Source: Evansella cellulosilytica DSM 2522
GTDB lineage: Bacteria; Bacillota; Bacilli; Bacillales; Salisediminibacteriaceae
Length of the DNA stretch: 64,000 nt
NCBI RefSeq assembly: GCF_000177235.2
Contig: NC_014829.1
Coordinates: 2,790,001 to 2,854,000 of the forward strand
Reading direction: 5' to 3'
Shown here: positions 27,852-29,553 of the stretch, piece by piece
How positions within the stretch are numbered: the first letter of the stretch is position 1
Layout: each line of letters begins with the position of its first letter
Program-made: the position numbers and the translations under genes
The notes under the pieces: generated by a model
What the model saw: the letters and a program-made list of their open reading frames with translations, nothing else
Database searches by the model: none
Told to the model about the DNA's origin: nothing

Positions 27852-27883
27852 TGGTGACTCAAAGGTCGAATTTTTACCTTTTT
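27852..27883 (+). terminator. Left part of a terminator split by the IS110-family element
   Basis: ATGGTGACTCAAA-GGT-loop-ACCTTTT is intact here, while its closing arm TTTGAGTCACCAT lies at 29448-29460 beyond the element. Rejoined, the two flanks rebuild a member of the repeated hairpin family that would have ended ylbP. Confidence 0.75.
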
Positions 27884-27968
27884 ATACGAAAATGAATACC
27901 TTGTAGGTCAAAAAAACAAAAAAAGGGGGAGGGTATCCTTACGGGTACTCTTTTCCATTTTTTTACTT

Positions 27969-29201
27969 TTAGGCTGTAGGTTGTTCTACCGTCACTTTAA
28001 AGCCTTTTGACTCAATATTCTTAATCCAGTAGTTGATCTTCCTTTCCGTATCTTTTTCTGCATAATCCCACCCTAATTCTTCATAGGGGATCTTGTCTTT
28101 AATAATATGATATATTATCCTTAAAATAAGATGTGCTGTAGCCATCGATGCTTTATATTGACCTCTTCTCTTCTGCACACGATGGAAGAATGAGGAGAGG
28201 CGGGTTCCTTTGGATTTGGATGCGGACCATGCTGCTTGACAAAGGACACCCTTTAAACTCCTGTTCCCTTTTTGGGTCCGGGAGTTTTTTTTCTTTCCAG
28301 CACTCTCATTATTACCAGGACATAATCCACCCCATGAAGCTAAGTGCTTATCAGATGGGAAACAAGACATATCTACGCCAATCTCTGCAATAATCACCGC
28401 TATAGCATTAAAACTTACACCAGGGATTGTATCGAGTAATTCAACATATTCGTCATAGGGGGTTATTAGACGGTCGATTTCGCCCTCCAATTCTGAAATT
28501 TGTTTCTCAAGATAAATTAAATGATCATAATGCATGCGAATAATTTTTCGATGATGCTGGCGTACTCGTCCATTTAAAGCATCAACTAATTGAGGTACTT
28601 TTCTCTTTAAAGAAGTTTTCACCAAGCTTCTTACCTGCTCCTCCGTTAACACCTCACCATTAATGATTGACTCTAAAAGAGCTCGTCCAGATACACCAAA
28701 TAAATCACTAACAAAAGTGGTTAACTTGACGTTTGCATCTTGTAAGATCTTATGGATACGATTTTTTTCTGAAGATGCATTGCCAACAAGCTTTCTACGG
28801 TAACGAGTATAATCCCGTAGATCTCGGAAGTTTTCAGGTGGAACAAAACTTGGTGTGATCAACCCACATCTCAATAACTGGGTAATCCAGGCTGCATCAC
28901 TGACATCGGTCTTACGACCAGGAACATTCTTAATGCGCTTTGCATTGGCAAGAATTAATTCGAAGCTCCCCTCTAGAATATTCCACACTGGTTTCCAATA
29001 AACACCAGTACTTTCCATTGCGACATGGGTACATTTAAAGCTTTCTAGCCAATCATGAAGTGCAAGTAAGCCTTTCGTCGTTGTAAGAAAAGTTTGTGTC
29101 TCTTTTTTTGGTCGTTTTTCCAATGGACCATACATAACACAAGCTACAATCTCTTCCTGATGAACATCTAGTCCAGCACATCTTTCCAATACTGCATCCA
29201 T
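27969..29201 (-). CDS. IS110-family DEDD transposase
   Basis: This 410-residue RuvC-like recombinase has an N-terminal DEDD domain with D12 (AGLDVH), E63 (AMESTGVYW), D99 and D102 (GRKTDVSDAAW). A coiled-coil linker spans about 222-250. The C-terminal Tnp20 domain has LLDTIPGVSF, FPSDKHLASWGGLCPG and S300 in NNESAGKKK, the expected nucleophile. AAGGAG before the ATG supports the start. IS110 enzymes use a bridge RNA to choose target and donor DNA. Confidence 0.93.
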   Translation of the reverse strand: MDAVLERCAGLDVHQEEIVACVMYGPLEKRPKKETQTFLTTTKGLLALHDWLESFKCTHVAMESTGVYWKPVWNILEGSFELILANAKRIKNVPGRKTDVSDAAWITQLLRCGLITPSFVPPENFRDLRDYTRYRRKLVGNASSEKNRIHKILQDANVKLTTFVSDLFGVSGRALLESIINGEVLTEEQVRSLVKTSLKRKVPQLVDALNGRVRQHHRKIIRMHYDHLIYLEKQISELEGEIDRLITPYDEYVELLDTIPGVSFNAIAVIIAEIGVDMSCFPSDKHLASWGGLCPGNNESAGKKKNSRTQKGNRSLKGVLCQAAWSASKSKGTRLSSFFHRVQKRRGQYKASMATAHLILRIIYHIIKDKIPYEELGWDYAEKDTERKINYWIKNIESKGFKVTVEQPTA

Positions 29202-29209
29202 AACTCATC

Positions 29210-29430
29210 ACTCCTTAATAAAAATAGAAATGATGCAGGTCATACACCTGTAAGCATGGTATTTTTATACACGTGTTCTTAACGACAATTAGCGGTGCTC
29301 GTAGGTGTATTCGGTCGGTTTGAGTCGCGGGGTAAAAATTCCACCAATAAAGGGACGACCTGTGACCTGCTAATCTTATTATAAAAATTAGCAAGCACAG
29401 GTCGCAAGTCATTTTCATTCATAGTGGTGG
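29210..29430 (-). ncRNA. Candidate bridge RNA of the IS110-family element
   Basis: Limits are approximate. Read on the minus strand it opens with a long hairpin: CGACCTGTG (29396-29404) pairs with CACAGGTCG (29356-29364), and inside GCTAAT pairs with ATTAGC. It then carries GAATTTTTACC (29331-29341), identical to the left flank at 27868-27878, and eight bases on GACTCAAA (29319-29326), the complement of the right flank TTTGAGTC at 29448-29455. Further on GTATAAAAA (29262-29270) equals the element's own end at 27879-27887 on the same strand. These fit a target-binding loop followed by a donor-binding loop. Confidence 0.7.
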
Positions 29431-29553
29431 CTATTAAGCCATGAAAGTTTGAGTCACCATCTTCTTTAAAGAAGTGGAAAGATTCACCGTATCTTTTATA
29501 GTACTTGTGAGCACTACTACGTATCGGTAAATTTCCACAGTCTAAGTAAATCT

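Follow-up and report, generated by a model that had tools for sequence, protein, structure and literature searches.

The insertion sequence at positions 27882..29447 (minus strand) of the window, the whole stretch of 64,000 nucleotides of the Evansella cellulosilytica DSM 2522 genome that was analysed, raises the question of which bases of its non-coding end read the DNA on either side of it, and in which order. The original prediction was of an IS110-family element with an upstream bridge-type RNA that reads both flanks, and this is upheld by the Pfam and NCBIfam matches of the transposase, a covarying RNA fold and the covariation of guides with flanks. Judging from sequence, we put at about 0.9 the probability that the element belongs to the IS110 family and encodes an upstream bridge RNA in which CCCUUU is the right target guide on the 5' side, GACUCAAA the left target guide on the 3' side, and GUAUAAAAA a donor guide on the 3' side of its own loop.

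An intact insertion sequence and its sites

Without its core the element is 1,566 bp long, as defined by alignment of the five own copies and by the end positions, and an AA core adjoins each end. Its transposase (recombinase; 27969..29201, minus strand, 410 aa) has the DEDD RuvC-like and Transposase_20 domains (PF01548, PF02371) and scores 269.6 bits against NCBIfam NF033542, where the cut-off is 140. The only solved relatives by sequence, up to an E-value of 1, are IS621 (E 5.6e-13) and ISCro4 (E 5.6e-8), and NNESAG of the transposase aligns with the YESG region of IS621, so that the conserved serine of the C-terminal domain is present (S241 by the literature numbering). The non-coding regions measure 246 nt upstream of the transposase (29202..29447, minus strand, encoding the predicted bridge RNA) and less than 90 nt downstream. 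Five copies are present in the genome; they share one identical upstream end, differ at 25 positions elsewhere, and each has an open 410-aa transposase with no stop. The element is an intact IS110-family insertion sequence, whose occurrence as five near-identical copies at different sites is suggestive of recent mobility. A plasmid search gave no near-identity match to the element. MicX, the sole Rfam match, had an E-value of 0.18, far under the gathering score, and was rejected. By eye, the right end (27882-27915) shows an outward-facing TATAAA, and TTGACC stands 19 bases upstream of it; on a circle the pair would point into the RNA.

In the sense of the element, the left target flank is TGACTCAAA (29448..29456, plus strand; AA core at 29448-29449) and the right target flank is AAAGGTAAAAATTC (27868..27881, plus strand; AA core at 27880-27881). 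The same TGACTCAAA adjoins the upstream end in 5/5 own copies, so that one condition named as refuting the original prediction, this non-coding end at unrelated sites, was not observed; the right-side flanks are GGTAAAAATTC (twice), GGTATAAATTC, AGGTGAAAATC and AGGTTGAACTG. TGACTCAAA belongs to a palindrome interspersed abundantly in the host, of which it forms one arm; the layout is TGACTCAAAAGGT, an A-rich loop and ACCTTTTGAGTCA. The pattern TGACTCAAAN{0,2}GGT matches 152 arms in the genome against 0 for the reversed control (own-genome examples are L036-L064), and most, not all, of 30 inspected arms had a second arm. Own guides and flanks included, GACTCAAA has 399 sites in the genome (reversed control 106) and GACTCAAAN{0,2}AGG has 196 (control 2). 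With a palindrome arm of this interspersed kind as target, insertion would mostly avoid genes.

When the two flanks are joined with one core, they reproduce uninterrupted repeats of the same locus in 8/37 elements (L070, L080, L085, L093, L094, L095, L100, L124), which means that no target duplication occurs, and the joined flanks of L001 and L002 are present at other palindromes of the genome. With TGACTCAAA common to the five own sites and the flanks joining with one core, insertion is sequence-specific and without target duplication. Across relatives the core is AA or AT; L073 and L097 combine a left AT with a right AA. A bias of the own insertions to the A-rich side of the palindrome is clear in four cases and unclear in the fifth, numbers too small to claim. 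Elements L080, L085, L093-L095 and L100 lie within tandem or clustered palindromic repeats, with uninterrupted units alongside. L084, from Aneurinibacillus danicus, has the same left guide and the same palindrome type as here, and element and target type thus co-occur in another genus.

The predicted bridge RNA and its guides

A transposase scan kept 80 of 110 relatives, of which 46 joined the five own copies in a first analysis of 51 rows; loci that were distant or incomplete were excluded, as were L065, whose upstream end is incomplete, and L096, which has no clear start. In L065, GCTGTCCCAAA runs straight into the sequence after the left guide, as though recombination at the guide had removed the RNA's first half. 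Upstream starts were hand-picked from C-NNN-CATG candidates, three by typed string, and the motif TTT[TA]C[GA]TA..., which overlaps the donor guide, served to locate right ends. For a held-out set, a covariance model built from the aligned RNAs was searched in genomes of the order (matches in 41/397) and of the class (49/398), samples that share the own genome and a few others. These genome searches gave 57 loci, of which nine (own, already used or partial) were omitted; the other 48 and the window were searched, yielding 49 usable matches, two identical to training RNAs. A distant set held 23 loci with 43-54% transposase identity, from Romboutsia, Clostridia, Acidobacteria, Planctomycetes, Proteobacteria and Nannocystis; L125 had no anchor and L127 ran off its contig, leaving 21, among them near-identical sets of three Sphingobium copies and of four acidobacterial loci.

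Four helices, all on the minus strand, find support in a plain MAFFT alignment of 26 RNAs. These are an outer helix of GCAGGTCA (29363..29370) with TGACCTGC (29235..29242), in which 8/8 pairs have changes on both sides; a target-loop stem of GGTCG (29356..29360) with CGACC (29313..29317); an apical hairpin between the guides (29328..29346); and a donor-loop stem (29303..29309 with 29243..29249), in which 7/7 pairs have changes on both sides. In this fold 92.6% of 597 cells pair, 17/23 pairs have changes on both sides, and none of five measures was reached in shuffles (0 of 500); sliding by 1-3 columns brings pairing to 31-40%. A single-sequence fold prefers a long 5' hairpin (29355..29405, minus strand) over the consensus fold; it is a strong hairpin, at the place where the original prediction had noted one. 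Its 3' arm holds strands of the outer helix and of the target-loop stem, so only one of the two folds can form at a time. The hairpin reaches -29 to -46 kcal/mol in 7/26 RNAs (this element, L066, L067, L081, L084, L113, L144), and the same stretch has -7 to -16 kcal/mol in the other 19/26. From these folding models it is possible that the hairpin serves as an on/off switch.

The left target guide is GACTCAAA (29319..29326, minus strand), on the 3' side of the target loop. Eight flank bases at the upstream end equal this 8-base stretch of RNA, and the C that follows (29318) is likewise common to the RNA and the start of the element. Enough flank was available for 45 of the 51 rows (6 lacked it); 35 match at 8/8, seven at 7/8, and three (L077, L082, L092) only after a one-base shift. 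Among 33 distinct elements, the guide agrees with 187/198 flank bases (positions -8 to -3); shuffles give 81.3, with a maximum of 115 in 10,000, and, like all shuffles and permutations here, ignore the relatedness of the elements. The held-out set repeats this: at least 7 nt are common with the flank in 42/49 rows, the 7/49 below being L149, L184, one copy in L188, L189, L193, L194 and L198, and the mean over 38 distinct loops (two duplicates included) is 7.37 against 3.53 (0 of 2,000 shuffles). In the 21 distant loci a looser test over 110 flank bases gave 7.8 against 4.96 (0 of 3,000), with 4/21 at 6 or less (L130, L133, which is misanchored, L137 and L138). The match reaches Acidobacteria, Planctomycetes, Proteobacteria and a myxobacterium, the left guide alone having been tested there. 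The original prediction had named this string as a guide, and by sequence comparison that is what it is.

A column scan of RNA against flank found a short complement right after the conserved AGGTCG. This is CCCTTT (29349..29354, minus strand), on the 5' side of the target loop, which would pair with AAAGG (the core AA plus AGG) and covaries with the right flank. It could be anchored in 27 of 32 distinct elements (L068, L084, L106, L107 and L111 had no anchor), where the longest match averages 4.56, as compared with 2.19 in shuffles (0 of 5,000); the anchored segment is too long in L095 and L108, in the shuffles likewise, and L069, L097 and L100 have no match of at least 3 from the flank start. 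In the held-out set right ends were usable for 29/49 (20 were skipped, two as duplicates), and the 25 distinct elements gave 5.0 against 3.77 (0 of 3,000). The covariation identifies CCCTTT as the right target guide.

The left donor guide GTATAAAAA (29262..29270, minus strand) lies on the 3' side of the donor loop and equals the right end of the element, as had been foreseen. The RNA positions of this guide agree with the right end in 28/28 elements, a count that is partly built in by the overlap with the end-finding motif, and the variants GTATTA, GTACAA, GTAAGA and ATACAA track the right ends. A scan for a right donor guide found none: besides weak signals, it picked up only the terminal hairpin of the end itself.

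The sequence thus points to a target loop in which CCCUUU and GACUCAAA, 5' and 3' of the apical hairpin, would each read one flank, and to a donor loop whose 3' side carries the left donor guide GUAUAAAAA. Transcription of the RNA, binding by the recombinase and catalysis would be further steps, which we infer, and the host target would be one palindrome arm.

The strings of the original prediction all lie where it had placed them: GAATTTTTACC at 29331-29341 (minus strand) and 27868-27878 (plus strand), GACTCAAA at 29319-29326 (minus strand), TTTGAGTC at 29448-29455 and GTATAAAAA at 29262-29270 (minus strand). The gap between its two guide strings, given as 8 bases, is 4. It had taken GAATTTTTACC for the right guide, an 11-nt pairing with GGTAAAAATTC, which might act alone or extend CCCTTT to choose the A-rich side. 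GAATTTTTACC belongs to the apical hairpin, whose loop here is AATTTTTA, and by hand count it matches the own right flanks at 11/11 at two sites and 10/11 at a third; among the other 26 elements compared, no apical loop exceeds 5. The last two own sites, however, match poorly in register (6/11 and 4/11; 8/10 and 6/10 after a shift of one base); GACTCAAA matches in 5/5 own copies. In relatives the apical loop matches the right flank no better than shuffles do, both in the 27 distinct elements (2,180 of 5,000 as high) and in the 25 held-out ones (3.32 against 3.26; 1,175 of 3,000 as high), and L113 has nearly the same apical loop at an unrelated right flank. The palindrome loops are rich in A, and the genome contains GGTAAAAATTC 29 times. 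We reject GAATTTTTACC as a general right guide, as covariation places that guide at CCCTTT, and consider a role for it in this element improbable.

It could also be supposed that the protein or the shape of the palindrome picks the site and that what matches in the RNA is flank sequence, inherited or captured; several targets are indeed palindromes. But where very similar RNAs differ in their left guides, the flanks differ accordingly; the match is confined to exactly 8 bases, whose place within a covarying structure is fixed; and held-out elements repeat it. All this makes the account very hard to sustain. The side of transcription is read from the sequence, and the functional RNA could in principle be the opposite strand. 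Many G-U pairs on the sense strand (GU:7, GU:7, GU:5 and UG:5, for example) would then become C-A mismatches, which favours the sense strand, and by reasoning an antisense RNA would not restore the pairing scheme of IS621; we regard this, too, as a very slight chance.

Guide order among known systems

In the sense of the element, the predicted bridge RNA runs from the right guide through the apical hairpin to the left guide; the donor loop follows, and its 3' side carries the left donor guide. IS621 has its left guides 5' and its right guides 3', with the left one first in both loops (PMC11208160, PMC11208158). In our IS621 control of four loci, two at the same site (L222, L225), where the left guide alone was checked, flank ATCAGGCCT corresponds to ATCGGGCCT, before the apical hairpin. 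By sequence comparison the target guides and the left donor guide of the Evansella element are in mirror-image order to those of IS621, which the original prediction missed. Its description of a new bridge-RNA recombinase holds for a variant with reversed guide order; the kind itself was already known. In other respects the likeness to IS621 is close: a DEDD recombinase with PF01548 and PF02371, an RNA in the upstream end, a target loop followed by a donor loop, two guides per target loop, and insertion at extragenic palindromes (PMC11208160, PMC11208158). The core is CT in IS621 (PMC11208160, PMC11208158) and AA here, and the transposase has 328 aa in the solved chain of IS621 but 410 aa in this element.

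Guide order has been described as a family difference, the complement of the top strand coming first in IS1111 elements and second in the one IS110 member tested (PMC11187229). Like IS1111-type seekRNA elements such as ISEc11, the element has the top-strand complement first, in its right guide, and the bottom-strand match second (PMC11187229). In the IS1111 type, however, the RNA is usually downstream and the transposase has 330-350 aa, whereas here the longer non-coding region is upstream, as in the IS110 type, and the transposase has 410 aa (PMC11187229). Subterminal inverted repeats of 7-17 bp are a further IS1111 trait (PMC11187229); here the 7-bp pair GAAAATG (29410..29416, minus strand) and CATTTTC (27888..27894, minus strand, near the right end) stands at unequal distances from the ends, and the right-end copy is demanded by the end-finding motif, so its conservation there cannot be counted. 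The IS110-type ISEc21 resembles the element in its RNA upstream of the transposase and in its natural cases of redirection, but has the bottom-strand match first, as IS621 does, and not the top-strand match (PMC11187229). Abundant extragenic palindromes also serve as sites for other insertion sequences, e.g. ISPpu9 (PMC8450116) and those in a survey (PMC1525189), in hosts and at palindromes that differ from those of this element.

From sequence, the branch to which the element belongs, defined by transposase identity and RNA-model matches, not by phylogeny, joins the IS110-type layout (RNA upstream) to the IS1111-type guide order, and the guide-order description of PMC11187229 therefore does not extend to it. 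A search of mostly open-access papers, covered as text, found no statement of a right-before-left order for upstream-RNA elements; one of the six further bridge RNAs drawn in Extended Data Fig. 10 of PMC11208160 might show it. We propose tentatively, and at somewhat less than even odds, that a large, multi-phylum IS110-type branch, whose RNA lies upstream and whose recombinase has ~400-420 aa, works with a mirror-image bridge RNA, with right-before-left target guides and the left donor guide 3', and that in a sub-branch including this element a 5' hairpin switch hides the guide loops.

If such a branch exists, RNA position and guide order would be independent traits, and the way its recombinase holds target and donor would be one that no solved structure yet shows. 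The mirrored order poses a concrete structural question. As material for design rules there are dozens of guide-target pairs that nature has reprogrammed, in which the left guide is sharply bounded at 8 nt and the right guide is separate, and guide order bears on how programmable DNA-insertion systems work.
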